Shown: one piece after another, positions 101 to 11,000 of the stretch | Layout of the letters: each line of letters starts with the position of its first letter | Position numbering within the stretch: position 1 is the first letter of the stretch | Virus record (IMG/VR): IMGVR_UViG_3300032516_000240 | Span: 1-20,706 of that record | Length of the DNA stretch: 20,706 nt | Source: a virus | Direction: 5' to 3' (one strand) | Notes under the pieces: generated by a model | Seen by the model: the letters and a program-made list of their open reading frames with translations, nothing else | Told to the model about the DNA's origin: nothing | Databases searched by the model: none | Position numbers and translations under genes: made by a program

Positions 101-680
101 GGGGCGAATACCACCTAATCATACCCTATCCTACCCGATAATGGCTTAAACGCCCTCTGCCCGCCCCATACTACCCTAAAGCCACCCAGCACACCCCATG
201 ATTACTGGTACTACCCTATGGCGTAGCATCACACCCTATGCCATAGCATACTACCCTATGGCGTAGCACTAGGGTGCTTGGCGTAGCGGCCAGCCCTATC
301 ACGTAGCACTAGGGTGCTTGACGTAGCATCCAGCCCTATCACGCCCAATGACGTAGCATCACGGCACTTGCTACCGTATCGCGCCCGCCTGGGCTCTAGG
401 AGGGTGCGCCAGGGCGCAGCCTACCCTAGCACGTAGCATAGTACCCAGTGACGTAGCGCACTACCCTAGCACATAGCACAAGGGCTCATCACGTAGCATC
501 AAGGCGCATAGTTACTCATCACATAGCACAAGGGCTCATCACGTAGCATCAAGGCGCAGGCTACCCCATGAGGGTGCATAGTACCTTCAATAGCGCATAA
601 GGGCGCATAGTTACTCATGAGGGCGCATGACTACTCATAAGGGCGACGAGGGTCCAATGAGGGCGAGGAGGGTCGCATCC
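101..680. repeat. Degenerate 10-bp phased repeat array
   Basis: The stretch reads as consecutive 10-base units with loose consensus N5-[GC]-[CT]-A-T-[GC]. Recurrent forms are acgtagcatc, ctaccctatg, agggtgcttg, agggctcatc and aaggcgcata. Between 121 and 580 about 22 CAT or TAT triplets fall at positions equal to 7 modulo 10 (for example 167, 197, 217, 227, 297, 327, 357, 437, 487, 497, 547, 577). A few CATs (242, 472, 522) sit exactly half a turn away. After one 9-base step near 590 the phase continues at 596, 606, 616, 626, 636 and 676. Ten is not a multiple of three, and TAG stops are frequent, so the period is not from coding. It matches one DNA helical turn. Confidence 0.85.
471..558. repeat. 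38-bp perfect direct repeat, 50-bp offset
   Basis: Bases 471-508 are repeated exactly at 521-558. Each copy begins acatagcaca and continues through agggctcatc and acgtagcatc to aaggcgca. The offset is 50 bp, five units of the surrounding 10-base array, so the copies keep the same helical phase. They differ immediately outside the repeat (ctaccctagc versus gttactcatc before it). This looks like a recent local duplication within the array. Confidence 0.9.
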
Positions 681-757
681 CTTCCGATCGCGGTGCGAGG
701 GGCGGGTCTTGCACGTCACGGTTGCGCGAGAGAAAAAGGTCCAAATTTGGTTTTCAC

Positions 758-786
758 TTGCCTTTTGCTTCACATCTACTTATCCT
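758..786 (+). promoter_or_regulatory. Candidate promoter placing the start site at the terS ATG
   Basis: TTGCCT at 758-763 and TATCCT at 781-786 are separated by 17 bases and resemble -35 and -10 boxes (matches are partial). Transcription would begin about 793, next to the ATG at 795, giving a leaderless message. No Shine-Dalgarno sequence precedes that ATG (the upstream bases are cctcccaccct), which fits. This rests on motif similarity only. Confidence 0.3.
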
Positions 787-794
787 CCCACCCT

Positions 795-1304
795 ATGACT
801 CACGCGCACCCATCAAGAACAGCTCTGCGTGCTGGACCAGAAGCGCAACAAGCACTACGGCCCATTCTTCAAGATGACTTCCTCAAGCACTACGCAGTAA
901 CTGGCTTGATAGGCAAGTCAGCGGAACTGGCCGGCACTGAACGGACCACCATTTTTAGCTGGCGCAAGGCGGATGCTGAGTTTGATGCCCGGTGTGTTTT
1001 GGCCCTGAAAACCTACTGTGAGGCGGTGGAAGCTGAGATCCATCGCCGCGCTATTGAGGGTGTGAACGAGCCTGTTTTTTACCAGGGCGAGGTGGTGGGT
1101 CACGTTACGCGGTACAGTGACCGCATGCTGGAACTCCACGCCAAGCGTCACATTCCCGAGTACCGTGAGCGCCAGCAGGTGGACTTGAATGTGAAGGGCG
1201 GCGTGATTGTCGTTCCTGGTATGGCCTTGACAACGCAACAGTGGGAGGCAACCGAGTTTGACACCGAAACCGACAGTCCAACTCTCCCTGTTCCAGCGCC
1301 CTGA
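795..1304 (+). CDS. terS: Terminase small subunit (HTH, DNA recognition)
   Basis: A 169-residue protein predicted to recognise viral DNA and load the packaging motor. Residues about 29-66 form a helix-turn-helix of the kind found in phage small terminases (KHYAVTGLIGKSAELAG, then TTIFSWRKADAEFDAR). A helical region and a short beta hairpin follow (EPVFYQGEVVGHVTRYSDR, residues 92-110), typical of this family, and then a variable tail. The reading frame is open back to 627, but those upstream codons lie in the repeat array and AT-rich leader and look non-coding. ATG 795 was therefore chosen although it has no Shine-Dalgarno sequence. Position directly before the large terminase supports the call. 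The gene adjoins the phased array at 101-680, a possible binding site. Confidence 0.8.
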   Translation: MTHAHPSRTALRAGPEAQQALRPILQDDFLKHYAVTGLIGKSAELAGTERTTIFSWRKADAEFDARCVLALKTYCEAVEAEIHRRAIEGVNEPVFYQGEVVGHVTRYSDRMLELHAKRHIPEYRERQQVDLNVKGGVIVVPGMALTTQQWEATEFDTETDSPTLPVPAP

Positions 1305-1584
1305 CAGCACAAAATACTGGGAAGTGCGCGTCCGCTCCAATATCCGTCTCGGGATAGCCCGCCTGGGCTTCCTTCCCTTTCCAGCAACCCCCCAGTCCAT
1401 CTCAATTCTGGCCGGGGCGCTGGCCGAGGAGCTTTGTGAGCAGTATAGGGACACCCTGGACCCATCTGAAGTGGCTCGCACGGCCCAGGAATGCTATCGG
1501 GAGATCCTGCTAGATCTACCCACGCCCAAACCCGGGGACGAGCAGCCCAATGATCGAGCGGTTAGAGTGGCGGGTTACAACTGA
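1258..1584 (+). CDS. Small hypothetical protein between terS and terL
   Basis: A 108-residue frame that overlaps the end of the small terminase gene by 47 bases and the start of the large terminase gene by 35. It begins with TTG, supported by GGGAGG at 1243-1248 nine bases upstream. No known domain is recognised. The N-terminal part has short beta-like stretches (YWEVRVRSNIRLGIARLGF). A helical stretch follows (ISILAGALAEELCEQYRDTL), with a proline-rich end. Without this frame about 245 bases between terminase subunits would be empty in an otherwise tightly packed operon, which argues that it is real. It may assist packaging, but nothing in the sequence shows this. Confidence 0.65.
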   Translation: MTPKPTVQLSLFQRPDSTKYWEVRVRSNIRLGIARLGFLPFPATPQSISILAGALAEELCEQYRDTLDPSEVARTAQECYREILLDLPTPKPGDEQPNDRAVRVAGYN

Positions 1585-3037
1585 GGGCATTGTCCCGATA
1601 CTGCATCGGGGCACCTCACAGGTCGAGGTGGCGTGGGCTCCTCAGCCTGGTAGTCAGGTGGCGTTTCTCACCTGCCCAGTGCAGGAAGCACTGTACGAGG
1701 GCGAACGTGGGCCGGGCAAGTCTGATGCTTTGATCATGGCCTTTGGCCAGCACGTGGGCAAGGGCTGGGGCCAGGCGTGGCGCGGAATCCTTTTCAGACG
1801 TACCTACCCCGAACTGCAAGACATCATCGCCAAATCGCAGAAGTGGTTCCCGCGTATCTGGCCCCAGGCCAAGTACAACCGGGCTGAGCACTTTTGGGAG
1901 TGGCCGGATGGGGAGATGTTCTTTTTCCGGCAGTTTGCTCGACCGGAGGATTACTGGAATTACCATGGCCACGAGTACCCATTCATCGCCTGGGAAGAGC
2001 TGACCAACTGGCACAGCCCCGACTGCTACAAGTCCATGTTCAGCTGTAGTCGTTCAACGGCAGTGGGCATACCACTGCTGGTACGTGGCACGTGCAACCC
2101 GTATGGGGTAGGGCATAACTGGGTCAAGGCACGGTGGCGGCTGCCGATTGCCATGGGGCGCGTTATGGGCCCAGTGATTCGGGACGCTGTGGATCGGGAA
2201 GGCCACCCAGAGCCGGAACGGGTGGCAATTCACGGAGAACTACGGGAAAACAAGATTCTGCTCCATGCCCAGCCCAATTACATTGCCAATTTGCGGGCAG
2301 CAGCGCGTAACCCGCAAGAACTGAAGGCGTGGCTGCATGGTGATTGGAACATTGTTGCCGGCGGCATGCTGGATGACGTGTGGGACCCCAAGATTCACGT
2401 ACTTCCAAACTTTCCCTTGACTCGTATCCCCAAGGGGTGGTATGTTGACCGGTCGTATGACCATGGGCAGTCAAAACCGTTCAGCGTGGGCTGGTGGGCG
2501 GAGTCCAATGGTGAGCCCCTCACTGTCAATGACCAGGTCTACGGCCCAGTGCGCGGAGACCTGATTCGCATTGCTGAATGGTATGGCTGGAACGGACAAC
2601 CCAATGAGGGACTGAACTGGGGTGGCCGTGAAATCGGCAGCGGCATACGAGAACGCGAACTCGCTTGGGGGTTAGAAGCAAGGCCAGGTGGGGCCGATGC
2701 GGCCATATTTGATGACTATGAGCCGGGCAGTAGCACTATTGGGGACATGCGGTCAGTAGGGGTGGACTGGGAAAAAGCGGATAAGTCCCCCGGGTCGCGC
2801 AAGCAGGGATGGGAACAGTTACGGAAATACCTACTGGCAGCACAAAACCCAGCACGCGAACATCCGGGGATGTTTGTGTTGGAGCGATGTGGACAGTTCC
2901 AGCGCACACTCCCAGTGCTGCCCCGATCTGATAGAGATCCGGATGATGTGGATGATGAGGCTGAGGATCACATTGGCGACGAGGTACGATACCGGTTGCG
3001 CCGCAAGCGCAGGATTGTGAGGTCGGGCACATGGTGA
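1550..3037 (+). CDS. terL: Terminase large subunit (ATPase and nuclease)
   Basis: The motor that pumps DNA into the procapsid through the portal and cuts the concatemer. The 495 residues show a Walker A-like loop GERGPGKS (51-58), a Walker B strand FIAWEEL (145-151) with the catalytic glutamate pair, and a coupling motif GTCNP (180-184). The C-terminal RNase H-like nuclease follows. YVDRSYDHG (298-306) supplies the first acidic residue, AIFDDY (385-390) fits the second, and the pattern DHxxDxxRY (473-481) closes the domain, as is common in phage large terminases. All key residues are present, so the enzyme looks intact. The start overlaps the preceding gene and has only a weak upstream GGGGA. 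The stop overlaps the portal start by 7 bases. Confidence 0.95.
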   Translation: MIERLEWRVTTEGIVPILHRGTSQVEVAWAPQPGSQVAFLTCPVQEALYEGERGPGKSDALIMAFGQHVGKGWGQAWRGILFRRTYPELQDIIAKSQKWFPRIWPQAKYNRAEHFWEWPDGEMFFFRQFARPEDYWNYHGHEYPFIAWEELTNWHSPDCYKSMFSCSRSTAVGIPLLVRGTCNPYGVGHNWVKARWRLPIAMGRVMGPVIRDAVDREGHPEPERVAIHGELRENKILLHAQPNYIANLRAAARNPQELKAWLHGDWNIVAGGMLDDVWDPKIHVLPNFPLTRIPKGWYVDRSYDHGQSKPFSVGWWAESNGEPLTVNDQVYGPVRGDLIRIAEWYGWNGQPNEGLNWGGREIGSGIRERELAWGLEARPGGADAAIFDDYEPGSSTIGDMRSVGVDWEKADKSPGSRKQGWEQLRKYLLAAQNPAREHPGMFVLERCGQFQRTLPVLPRSDRDPDDVDDEAEDHIGDEVRYRLRRKRRIVRSGTW

Positions 3038-4488
3038 AGGAAAACAGCCCCGCCGCCACCAGCCTAGCCTATGACCACATGCTGCCCAGCTGGGCCAAGA
3101 TCCAGACAGTGCTAGATGGCACGGAGGCGCTACGCAAGGCTGGAACGCTCTATTTACCCCAGCACAAGTACGAATCCAATGATGGGTACACGGAACGGCT
3201 CAGCAAATCGGTGTTGGTGAACCTGACCCGGCTCACGCTCCAGTCATGGGTGGGTAGACCGTTCAGCATTCCCATCAAGTTGGCGGACGTTCCACAGGAA
3301 ATCCTTGATCTGCTGACGGATGTGGACCTGCTGGGCTCTGACCTTCAGATGTTTGCCCGGAATTGGTTTTCTGACGGGGTGGCCAAGGCTTTCAGCCATG
3401 TTTATGTGGACTTTCCGCGCACTGACCTCACCCCTCAGCGTACTCTTCAAACTGACCGTGAGGAGCACATCCGCCCCTATTGGATCCACTGGCGTCCGGA
3501 GCAGCTTTTCTATGCCAGTAGCGAGATGGACCGGGGCCAGGAAGTGCTGACCGAAATTCGGGTGATGGAGAATGTGATCACCCGAGACGGATTTGTTGAG
3601 GCTTCTACACAGCAAATCCGCCGCGTCACCCTGGACGGTCAACGGGTTGAGCTGTTTCAGCTCAAAAAGTTGAGGGGCCGTGGCAAGGTGGTCTGGGCAA
3701 AGGTGGACGAGTACACCTTCAGTTTGCCCACCATCCCCTTGGTCACGTTCTATAGTGACCGTGAAGCGTTCATGCAGGGCACTCCGCCGTTGGAGGACTT
3801 GGCCGACTTGAATCTGTCACATTGGCAGGGGTACAGTGACCAGCAGGCTTGTCTCACGGTGGCCCGGTTCCCGATTCTTGCCCTGAGCGGGGGGTCCGAT
3901 TCTGAGGGTGTGTTGAAAATCGGCCCCAACCGGTGGCTGTACAGCCCGGACCCGGCGGCCAAGTTTTACTATGTGGAGCACAGTGGCAACGCCATTGAGG
4001 CGGGGCGTAAGGACTTGCTGGATAAGGAAGCCCGCATGTCTGAGTACGGGGCCGAGTTTTTGAAAAAGCGGCCCAGTGCTACCACGGCCACGGCGCGCAC
4101 GCTGGATTCCTCTGAGGCCACGTCCCCGCTTCAGGACATGGCGATGCGGTTTGCCACGGCCATGAACCGGGCCTTGGCCCTCACGGCGCAGTGGATGGAC
4201 CTCAAGGAGGGTGGTACAGCGCAGTTGCGCACGGACTTCGGGCCGGAGGACTCCAGCCCGGCGGAACTGACCACACTCCAGGCCACCCGCAAGGATCGTG
4301 ACATCAGCCGCGTCACCTACCTCAAGGAGATCCAGCGGCGCGGCATGTTGCCGGATGACTTCGATCAGGAAGCCGACGCTGAACTGCTTGAGGAAGAGTC
4401 CCTGGAGATGATTGGCACCCTGACGCCAACACCCCCTGAACCGAAGCCTGAGGAGACAGGGGAAGAAACCGAGCCTGAGGAAGAATGA
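3031..4488 (+). CDS. Portal protein (DUF4055-type)
   Basis: A 485-residue protein predicted to form the ring at the capsid vertex through which DNA enters and leaves. The N-terminal pattern YLPQHKYESNDGYTERLSKS (41-60), followed by a helix and SWVGRPFSIP (72-81), is characteristic of DUF4055 portal-like proteins. The long helix around residues 320-390 and the strongly acidic C terminus (from about 468, rich in E and P) also fit. The gene sits between terminase and a MuF-like head protein, the standard portal position. ATG 3031 lies inside the end of terL and has GTGAGG at 3017-3022 as ribosome site, so translation is probably coupled. Confidence 0.88.
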   Translation: MVKENSPAATSLAYDHMLPSWAKIQTVLDGTEALRKAGTLYLPQHKYESNDGYTERLSKSVLVNLTRLTLQSWVGRPFSIPIKLADVPQEILDLLTDVDLLGSDLQMFARNWFSDGVAKAFSHVYVDFPRTDLTPQRTLQTDREEHIRPYWIHWRPEQLFYASSEMDRGQEVLTEIRVMENVITRDGFVEASTQQIRRVTLDGQRVELFQLKKLRGRGKVVWAKVDEYTFSLPTIPLVTFYSDREAFMQGTPPLEDLADLNLSHWQGYSDQQACLTVARFPILALSGGSDSEGVLKIGPNRWLYSPDPAAKFYYVEHSGNAIEAGRKDLLDKEARMSEYGAEFLKKRPSATTATARTLDSSEATSPLQDMAMRFATAMNRALALTAQWMDLKEGGTAQLRTDFGPEDSSPAELTTLQATRKDRDISRVTYLKEIQRRGMLPDDFDQEADAELLEEESLEMIGTLTPTPPEPKPEETGEETEPEEE

Positions 4489-7624: not shown

Positions 7625-8200
7625 ATGGCACTTTATTTGGTTACCTCGGACACCGGTTCAGCGGCCAAAACCCGCAAGCTGGGTGCCAATGCCATGATCG
7701 TGTCTGCGGCGGACGCCACAGACGCTCTGGCCATCTGCCAGGCCAAGTTCGGCGGGGACAGCTCCTGGGCTGACGCCACCTTCACCGCCATCGCCGATGT
7801 CACCCAGGCCACCGCCAATGGGCTGGTGGGCTGGACGGTCACTGTCAAGGTCAACACCACGGTGCCGATTTCGGTTTCGTACACCGGCACGGCCACCAAT
7901 GACACCATCGACGAAATCGGTGCGGCGCTGGTCACGTTGCTCAACGCCACCGCCATCGACGGTGCGGCCTACTCAGCCAACGTGCTGAAGGTTGCGGAGA
8001 CCACGGATGGTATCGGTGACAAGACGGTCACCGTCACCTTCACGCCTCCGGCGGCCACCTATCCGGAAGCTGTTCACATTCCTGGTATGGTCGGGACCAT
8101 CGTTCACGAGGGCGTTTCGGGTGCGGCCCTGACTGTGGCGTTCAAGGCTGACGCCTACGTGGTGCCCACGGTGATTGCCAGCGTGGACTACAGGAGCTAG
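7625..8200 (+). CDS. Putative virion structural / decoration protein
   Basis: A 191-residue protein directly downstream of the capsid gene, with a strong AGGAGG ribosome site about seven bases before ATG 7625. The first 60 residues (ALYLVTSDTGSAAKTRKL, then ANAMIVSAADATDALAICQA) form a mixed segment. The rest is rich in Thr, Val and Ala (WTVTVKVNTTVPISVSYTGT, TVTVTFTPPAATYPEAVHI) and should fold as beta sheet, perhaps Ig-like. There is no signal peptide or membrane segment. Position and beta-rich composition suggest a capsid-binding decoration protein, but no specific family is recognised. Confidence 0.65.
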   Translation: MALYLVTSDTGSAAKTRKLGANAMIVSAADATDALAICQAKFGGDSSWADATFTAIADVTQATANGLVGWTVTVKVNTTVPISVSYTGTATNDTIDEIGAALVTLLNATAIDGAAYSANVLKVAETTDGIGDKTVTVTFTPPAATYPEAVHIPGMVGTIVHEGVSGAALTVAFKADAYVVPTVIASVDYRS

Positions 8201-8997: not shown

Positions 8998-9378
8998 ATG
9001 AGCGACGCGACGTATTTTCCCTTGAACCTGACCATTGTTCAGGGGGACGACGTGCCGATGACGTTCCTGTTCAGCCAGGACGGGGTGCCGCTGGACATCT
9101 CGTCCTGGTTGTTCTATTACACAGCCAAGGCAGCATATGCTGATGTGGACGCATCGGCCAAGATCACCGTCAACCCCACGGCTATGACGCTCAGCGCGTC
9201 CATTCCGGCGGGCACTGTGGACAAGCTCACTTTCGTTCTGCCCAAGGCCAGCACGGTGTTGATGGCTGCCGGTAATTACTACCAAGACCTTCAGGTCATT
9301 CGCACCGGCCTGGTGACCACGCTGGGTCGGGGTCTTTTGGTGGTTGAGGCCCAGGTAACGATTAGGACTGCGCCATGA
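8998..9378 (+). CDS. Beta-sandwich protein resembling BppU N-terminal domains
   Basis: A 126-residue protein. An upstream in-frame TTG (8992) exists, but ATG 8998 has AGGGG at 8987-8991 at a proper distance and was preferred. The sequence FPLNLTIVQGDDVPMTFLFS, then DGVPLDISSWLFYYTAKA, follows the pattern QGDD-x-hydrophobic ... G-P-x-D-I-S of domains at the N terminus of phage baseplate upper proteins and fibre anchors. Alternating strands continue to the end (TFVLPKAST, YYQDLQVIRTG). It probably serves as an adaptor that attaches the fibre encoded immediately downstream (ATGA overlap) to the virion. The family match is by eye. Confidence 0.65.
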   Translation: MSDATYFPLNLTIVQGDDVPMTFLFSQDGVPLDISSWLFYYTAKAAYADVDASAKITVNPTAMTLSASIPAGTVDKLTFVLPKASTVLMAAGNYYQDLQVIRTGLVTTLGRGLLVVEAQVTIRTAP

Positions 9379-11000
9379 CCGACTTCATTGAGAAGTTGCA
9401 CTTGGTCCGTTTGGTGGATGGCGCATGGGAAGTCACCGTCAACGACACGGTGGTGTTCCAGGTGGCCGCGTCCGTCCCTGGCACAGCGGTCAACGGGCTG
9501 CCTGCCGCTGGCACCACGGGCCAGATGCTGGTCAAGCATTCCGACGTTTACTACGATGCGGAGTGGATCACGCCGGCACCCGCCGTTGTCGGCCTGGGCA
9601 ATGTGACCAACGATGCGCAGTTGAAACGGGCTGCCGGGGACTTCGCCACCTTTGCTGAAGTCGTGGTGGTGGCCGACGACCTGTTGCTGTTTGAGGACAC
9701 CAGTGACGGCGGTGCCAAGAAAAAGCTTCAGGTCGGCAACCTGCCCAAACCTGTGGCCGATGACATTCTCTTGGTGTACTCGGGATGGGAGATATTCAGT
9801 GGCGGCACGGTGCTTGATGCTTTGAAAGATACTGATGCAGTTTTTGTGCTGTGGAATCAGCACATGTTCACCAAATCCAATCCCCATGAGACCACCAAAG
9901 ACCAGGTTGGCTTGGGCAATGTCCCCAACCTGGATACCACCGCAGCCGTTTCAGCCAGCCACACCCACTCGAACAGCGTGGAATTGGCTAAGGTCACCGA
10001 TGGCGATCATGACGTTCGTACCGACAACCCCCACGCCACCACCAAGGCACAGGTGGGGTTGACCAACGTTCCCGACATCGACACCACGGCAGCCGTTGCG
10101 GCGTCACATACGCATTCGAACAGCGCCCAACTCGCGTTGGTGTCCGATGGTGATCACGACGTTCGGACGGACAACCCCCACGCCACCACCAAGGCGCAGG
10201 TCGGGTTGACCAACGTCCCTGACATCGACACCACTGCCGCAGTTGCAGCCTCTCATACCCATTCGAACAGCGCCCAGTTGGCTCTGGTCACTGATGGGGA
10301 TCACGATGTTCGGACGGGCAATCCCCACTCGACGACCAAGGCTCAGGTCGGGCTGACCAACGTGACGGACGCGGCCCAGTTGACCCGTGGCGCGGGCGAC
10401 TGGACTGCTTTCACAGAGGCTACGCCAGCGGCCACGGACCTGATTCTGATTGAGGACGCAGACGACGGTGGGGCCAAGAAAAAGGTTCAGGTGTCCTCCC
10501 TGCCGGTGGGCAGTCACGCTCACGCAGCTTCAGCAATCAGTGTGGTCACTTCTGCCTTTGGGGGTGCGCTCACAAACGACGCCGCCAGCGACACTGTTCA
10601 GGAGTGCCTGGATAAGCTCGATGACCATAATCACGATGCCGCGTATGCGGTCAAGGCTCTGCCCGAAGCCATCGAGATTTGCTTCGACGGCGGAGGTGCC
10701 ACCCTCACCGTGGACAAGAAGGTGGACATCGTTGCCAAGTGCGCGATGACCATCACGGGGTGGACGCTGCTCGCGGATCAGTCGGGCAGCGTGGCCATCG
10801 GGGTTTGGAAAGACACCTACGCCAACTTCCCCCCGGTCATTGCTGATGTGCTGGTGACCCCCGCGATCACCACGGCAGTCAAGGCCCAGGCGTCCAGCCT
10901 CAACCTTGCGGTCGCGGCAGGGGACATCCTCCGCTTCAACATCAACTCCGCCACCACCATTCAGCGGGTCACGCTCGCCCTCACGGGGGTGCGGGCATGA
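9375..11000 (+). CDS. Phage fibre protein with tandem repeats (head or tail fibre)
   Basis: A 541-residue fibre, probably trimeric. Residues 1-70 form an attachment part. Residues 72-124 and 325-377 are two copies of one 53-residue module (32 of 53 identical). Between them lie three 49-residue repeats starting at 169, 218 and 267 with a partial fourth at 316, each beginning NPH-x-TTK-x-QVGL-x-NV, a well known fibre repeat. HxH pairs occur at 196/198, 245/247, 294/296, 381/383 and 418/420. The C-terminal 105 residues (EICFDGGGATLTV, WTLLADQSGSVAIGVWKDTY, VAAGDILRFNINS) match a beta-sandwich found at the tip of many phage fibres, the likely receptor-binding part. Its place before the connector genes makes a head or neck fibre possible. 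Confidence 0.85.
   Translation: MTDFIEKLHLVRLVDGAWEVTVNDTVVFQVAASVPGTAVNGLPAAGTTGQMLVKHSDVYYDAEWITPAPAVVGLGNVTNDAQLKRAAGDFATFAEVVVVADDLLLFEDTSDGGAKKKLQVGNLPKPVADDILLVYSGWEIFSGGTVLDALKDTDAVFVLWNQHMFTKSNPHETTKDQVGLGNVPNLDTTAAVSASHTHSNSVELAKVTDGDHDVRTDNPHATTKAQVGLTNVPDIDTTAAVAASHTHSNSAQLALVSDGDHDVRTDNPHATTKAQVGLTNVPDIDTTAAVAASHTHSNSAQLALVTDGDHDVRTGNPHSTTKAQVGLTNVTDAAQLTRGAGDWTAFTEATPAATDLILIEDADDGGAKKKVQVSSLPVGSHAHAASAISVVTSAFGGALTNDAASDTVQECLDKLDDHNHDAAYAVKALPEAIEICFDGGGATLTVDKKVDIVAKCAMTITGWTLLADQSGSVAIGVWKDTYANFPPVIADVLVTPAITTAVKAQASSLNLAVAAGDILRFNINSATTIQRVTLALTGVRA
9879..10364 (+). repeat. 147-bp tandem coding repeats in the fibre gene
   Basis: Three units of 147 bases (9879-10025, 10026-10172, 10173-10319) and a partial fourth (10320-10364) encode 49-residue repeats. 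Units 2 and 3 encode proteins identical at 47 of 49 residues, but their DNA differs at 22 of 147 positions, 19 of them silent. The first unit is more divergent in protein sequence. Confidence 0.9.

Follow-up and report, generated by a model that had tools for sequence, protein, structure and literature searches.

A Helically Phased Array of Degenerate 10-Base Units Upstream of the Terminase Genes of an Uncultured Phage, a Candidate Packaging Site

Genes and Promoter at the Locus

The window analysed here is a 20,706-bp IMG/VR phage contig with late genes. On the plus strand, the gene for the terminase small subunit (TerS, 795..1304; phrog_4044, E 1.3e-40) is followed by those for the terminase large subunit (TerL, 1550..3037; phrog_979, E 1.6e-27) and the portal protein (3031..4488; phrog_145, E 6e-118). 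The other late genes on the contig encode head morphogenesis, scaffold, major head and tail proteins. A 147-bp tandem repeat at 9891-10363 (3.2 copies, 80% matches) codes for 49-aa repeats in a tail-fibre-like protein (9375-11000).

TerS has 169 aa and a predicted N-terminal helix-turn-helix (HTH). Its AlphaFold model (pLDDT 83.5) has an all-helical N-terminal part that includes the HTH, a long helix and a beta hairpin. The best Foldseek match is to chains of the Sf6 TerS (Sf6 gp1), with a probability of 1.00 but a weak E-value of 0.06, and the HTH region also matches the Sf6 gp1 sequence weakly (E 0.013). The Sf6 TerS chains form rings.

Immediately before TerS, we found a putative near-leaderless late promoter at 758..786 on the plus strand (TTGCCT, 17 bp, TATCCT; the TerS ATG follows after 8 nt); this pair fell below the threshold of a generic promoter scan. 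The nearest relative, L002, has the same layout at its TerS gene (TTGACT-17-TATCCT-7 nt), and those of L007, L004 and L112 are similar. Pairs of the form TTGNNN-17/18-TANNNT lie 6-9 nt before the TerS ATG at 758-795 in the window, 268-304 in L002, 2859-2897 in L007 and 2667-2703 in L004. No Shine-Dalgarno sequence was seen before the TerS start in the window or in L002; these layouts suggest that transcripts of the late operon may have almost no leader.

A Lattice of 10-Base Units

Degenerate 10-base units, one per helical turn, form a noncoding lattice that runs from 101 to about 689 and ends about 105 bp upstream of the TerS start; the array of L002 likewise lies directly before TerS. The window array holds about 59 units, which are not independent counts since part of the periodic signal is recent tandem duplication. 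The first register (101..589, assigned to neither strand) comprises about 48 units and was delimited by autocorrelation, unit profile and register counts. Its recurring words are CTACCCTATG, ACGTAGCATC, AGGGCTCATC and GTTACTCATC, with [CT]AT at unit positions 7-9. A single 9-base step near 580-590 shifts the register by one, and the phase is then held to about 689. This second register (590..689, also without strand) has about 10 units, whose scores in register -1 are mostly positive. The earlier note had counted about 55 units up to 676 with a 9-base step near 590; the step and the maintained phase stand, and the array is slightly longer than it had stated.

The periodicity of 101-680 was tested by autocorrelation against 500 dinucleotide shuffles. 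Identity was 0.367 at lag 10 (0.258 in shuffles, z 5.5), 0.489 at lag 20 (about 0.26 in shuffles, z 12.0), 0.493 at lag 40 (z 11.9) and 0.432 at lag 50 (z 9.7), at each of these lags above every one of the shuffles, while lags 16, 24, 34 and 54 were depleted. Of all 300-bp windows in the 20.7 kb, those that rank highest in lag-10 identity nearly all lie inside 1-820. The array spectrum also shows a 5.0-bp component.

The word positions agree with this. CAT or TAT starts at 7 modulo 10 in 22 of 26 cases within 101-589, and past the 9-base step all six starts fall at 6 modulo 10. TAG starts at 4 modulo 10 in 13 of 21 cases; TAG at p4-p6 had been noticed in many units. The exceptions at 242, 472 and 522 had been described as CATs exactly 5 bp out of register, which is correct, but there is one further off-register start, at 120. 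Column information sums to only about 4 bits over the 10 columns, so the units are degenerate. Tandem Repeats Finder (TRF) gave periods of 20 and 40 within the array; every period reported there is a multiple of 10, the pattern that a purge of out-of-phase duplications would leave. A coding repeat was rejected, as no long ORF runs through the array. The 10-base lattice is thus confirmed.

DNA and RNA Properties of the Array

Bent or flexible DNA had been offered as an alternative to a packaging site, with predicted curvature as a check. An intrinsic bend is not supported: in a wedge model the array is curved by 30.9 degrees per 120 bp and the rest of the window by 32.6, and the DNase-I bendability of the array is not exceptional. 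Unit positions 8-9 are AT-rich (a WW dinucleotide stands there in 65% of units), GC-rich steps lie about half a turn off, and such phased AT and GC steps would allow wrapping. GC content across 1-795 is 0.62, 0.57, 0.56 and 0.53. A structured RNA element was also rejected, as folding was no better than that of shuffled sequence on the two strands (z -0.49 and -0.88) and the array had no Rfam match.

The Array in Related Phages

In L002, whose TerL and TerS are 88% and 64% identical to those of the window, the contig end falls inside an array of the same type that runs on to TerS. Both contigs therefore break at or near the array, which assembly breaks caused by the repeats would also explain. 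A unit profile trained on the window scored 1.95 bits per unit in L002, in one register, and the best of 6,000 control segments scored -1.86. With the 30-bp duplications of L002 removed, the profile still gave 0.71, compared with 0.03 for the highest control of the same length. The duplication period is 30 in L002 (TRF) versus 20 and 40 in the window, all multiples of 10.

The exact array was common to only these two phages. The window profile, run over all TerS/TerL loci, found no third phage, the next locus (L083) being within noise. An exact-word search of IMG/VR for TACCCTAT-NNN-GTAGCAT gave 13 matches, all single and none in arrays; a pattern of L002-type words found L002 only; a looser word pattern gave 36 matches, again all single; and the TerS profile had no match in bacterial genomes. 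In L083 (2290-2420), about 0.8 kb before a distant TerS, the inverted words CTACCCTGCTACTCATC ... GATGAGTAGCAGGGTAGC, close to the window units, flank an AT-rich stretch; this is not a 10-bp array.

More distant relatives with conserved terminases, including the Mesyanzhinovviridae phages Ab18, Epa5, CN1 and Donnerlittchen, lack the 10-bp lattice. The earlier note had set such an absence beforehand as an observation against its packaging reading; the comparison with relatives is positive for L002 and negative for the distant phages. These distant relatives do have a noncoding block before TerS, of 640-930 bp in CN1, Donnerlittchen and Ab18; in Ab18 this gap, at 926 bp, is by far the largest intergenic gap. 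Other short repeats occupy the same place in distant relatives (GAGTTACTTGAG in Ab18, TTACTTAGGTT in CN1). Over 86 TerS-group loci, 25 noncoding tandem repeats lie within 1.2 kb upstream of TerS versus 4 elsewhere (p=3e-5), for about equal noncoding lengths (10.6 vs 11.3 kb). Their commonest period is 9 bp.

Phased Arrays across IMG/VR

Scanning IMG/VR for five CATs spaced 10 bp matched at least 120 records. The array counts that follow are samples and not totals, taken with CAT as the anchor and from fragmentary contigs. Lag-10 identity was at least 0.55 in 71 of the 120 matches listed, and among these matches arrays were present in about 60 other IMG/VR records. We kept 49 non-duplicate records among the matches listed, in which the arrays are mostly noncoding, and TerL was recognised (phrog_2, phrog_9 or phrog_38) in 34 of them. 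Among these listed matches, 14 of 34 have the array upstream of TerL at a distance of no more than 2 kb, where 6.4 would be expected from random array placement in the same contigs (p=0.0007, at a distance chosen after inspection of the data). The corresponding downstream interval is not enriched (4/34 vs 7.1 expected). For the listed contigs of at least 12 kb, 6 upstream arrays were found vs 1.8 expected (p=0.0065), and at 1 kb the upstream enrichment among the listed matches is weak (6 vs 3.7, p=0.15).

The collection scan compared periods of 10 and 11 bp, both near one helical turn. The 11-bp control set comprised at least 35 noncoding records, nine with a usable TerL position, and among the matches listed three of these nine arrays lie within 2 kb upstream of TerL, with 0.65 expected. 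Because the 11-bp set shows the same tendency, the common feature is helical phasing and not exactly 10 bp, and a requirement for exactly 10 bp was dropped. For a statistical association between helically phased arrays and terminase genes, this evidence is good but not conclusive. The CATs were on mixed strands relative to TerL, and this candidate indicator of array direction was abandoned.

In L314, L217 and L259, the only three listed records examined in which it was recognised, a PHROG terminase small subunit lies between the array and TerL; the order in L314 is array, 82 bp, TerS, TerL. Further array examples are L286/L266, L256 (a long run of degenerate units), L228, L254, L239 and L308. 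Small proteins with AT-hook-like GRPK repeats (a weak Pfam match in one) are encoded between the decamer array and TerL at L286:3645-4052, L256:11937-12326 and L228:9157-9576, and are possibly unrecognised TerS.

Some long decamer arrays are not close to TerL. They include L237:785-1070, with CATTCAACAG units and an anti-repressor gene nearby, and L241:6310-6570, with AACATGCGCT/ACATTTGTTC units, and likely reflect other functions of decamer arrays. At L269:7970-9359, a decamer array (AGAAGTTATG/CAAAGTTATG) is followed by a small protein and then a TubZ-like tubulin; this array is probably a tubC-like centromere in a phage.

Packaging-Site Interpretation and Its Alternatives

On the best reading, the array would be the packaging-initiation (pac) region of a headful-packaging phage, in which an HTH ring of TerS would contact one unit per helical turn; our belief and our doubt in this reading are about evenly balanced. 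It was already proposed from the sequence in the earlier note and is now partly supported, by the array in L002, the one close relative identified, by phased arrays upstream of terminases in unrelated phages, by the neighbouring gene being TerS and by the Foldseek match to the Sf6 TerS; TerS binding, ring wrapping and cutting at this site are what we infer from them. In such a mechanism, TerS made from the next gene would assemble into a ring with one HTH per subunit. Each 10-base unit would show the same DNA face, so that successive units would meet successive HTH domains, with the DNA either encircling a TerS ring or following a stack of rings. Degenerate units held in strict phase fit a specificity built on many weak contacts, all in phase, and not on one strong operator. 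The next step would be recruitment of TerL, which would cut first within the array or next to it.

The spacing between neighbouring HTH motifs in SF6-type TerS rings is about one helical turn, and binding by multiple weak contacts combined with conformational selection has been proposed (PMC4737164); one decamer per HTH would thus be a simple geometric match. With nine to eleven subunits per ring, about 59 units would be enough for five or six rings. Since the repeat is 10.0 bp over nearly 50 units and relaxed B-DNA has about 10.5, a bound array would overtwist the DNA or follow a superhelix. A pac site is stated as confirmed in Bordetella phage LK3, of the same family (PMC8471281). Against the model, a review doubts nucleosome-like TerS binding (PMC9611059), and the HK97 TerS threads DNA through its channel (PMC11331095).

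A replication origin, with the units as iterons for a phage initiator or a P4-like primase-helicase in the one large noncoding stretch that separates early from late genes, seems unlikely to us, even though SPP1 origins consist of direct repeats and an AT-rich element (PMC6316719), L002 encodes a RepB-primase/DUF5906 protein and Donnerlittchen has a P4-type primase immediately before this noncoding region. The TerS-upstream region, being the largest gap of Ab18, may hold more than one element. No AT-rich unwinding element adjoins the array, however (GC 0.53-0.62 across 1-795), and there is no reason to expect iterons in front of terminase genes across unrelated phages; GC skew, with no clear minimum or switch here in Ab18 or Donnerlittchen, was uninformative as a test. 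We consider it improbable that the units, lying before the late promoter at 758, are many sites for a phage transcription activator with a RinA/ArpU-like role. The promoter-like TTGNNN-17-TANNNT pair does stand between the array and TerS in the window and L002, and DNA of Lactiplantibacillus phage H1-Guo that matches the surroundings of an 11-bp array is flanked by an ArpU-like DUF1492 gene on one side and the terminase operon on the other; both roles could also coexist, as SPP1 pac overlaps late promoters (PMC6316719). Yet -35 and -10 boxes can already be recognised in the promoter, and no activator gene is visible on the contig, from which the early region of this phage is missing. To our knowledge, nearly 600 bp of sites also far exceeds what late activators use.

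Neutral tandem-repeat DNA, expanded by slippage without a role, would account for the 20-, 30- and 40-bp local duplications, which show recent slippage. Several observations make it a very improbable explanation of the whole array, namely the strict 10-bp phase over degenerate, non-identical units, a profile and register common to L002 although the duplications differ, and the recurrence before terminases; pure slippage would also yield steps other than multiples of 10. Hardly credible here is a partition-like centromere, its units bound by a small filament-forming HTH protein as in tubC or parC. The L269 array (7970-8070), directly before its small protein and TubZ-like tubulin, indicates that decamer arrays may serve such systems, but the neighbours here are TerS and TerL (in the window and L002) and the portal gene, and the late proteins scanned include no partition NTPase.

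Returning to the packaging reading, it is conceivable, though we hold the idea as doubtful, that many unrelated tailed phages use helical phase itself as a packaging code, in which a TerS ring would read collectively a lattice of weak, degenerate contacts spaced 10 or 11 bp and not one specific word. How TerS recognises pac, by wrapping or by threading, is disputed (PMC9611059, PMC11331095). A natural 590-bp site with one degenerate contact per turn would be a ready substrate to decide it, since wrapping and threading predict opposite outcomes for register-shift mutants (insertions of 5 or 10 bp). Should the recurrence before terminases be borne out, candidate packaging sites in uncultured phages could be found from sequence alone.

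Comparison with Known Systems

The tubC and parC centromeres consist of direct repeats near one helical turn, on which small HTH or RHH proteins form a wrapped filament. Unlike them, the window array adjoins terminase and portal genes with no partition NTPase. The SPP1 oriL/oriR iterons are also direct repeats, bound in SPP1 by a phage protein (PMC6316719), but the window lacks an adjacent AT-rich unwinding element.

In the literature searched, largely outside subscription journals, no long decamer lattice is described as a packaging site. The earlier statement that no described phage site is built this way needs softening, given the similar arrays in many IMG/VR records and the two 21-bp direct repeats of the Escherichia phage 9g pac (PMC5567051). 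The SPP1/SF6 pac (pacL, pacC, pacR) resembles the window array in lying at the TerS gene, overlaps late promoters, and is proposed to wind around a TerS ring whose HTH domains are spaced by one helical turn (PMC4737164, PMC6316719). It differs in having a few short boxes and no long decamer lattice, and SPP1-type pac is intrinsically bent, whereas no intrinsic curvature is predicted for the window DNA. In phage 9g, the pac has two repeats and a 12-bp core, in contrast to about 59 degenerate 10-bp units over 590 bp in the window; like the window array, it lies upstream of the terminase gene, its 21-bp direct repeats span about two helical turns, and the cut of this headful site has been mapped beside the repeats (PMC5567051).
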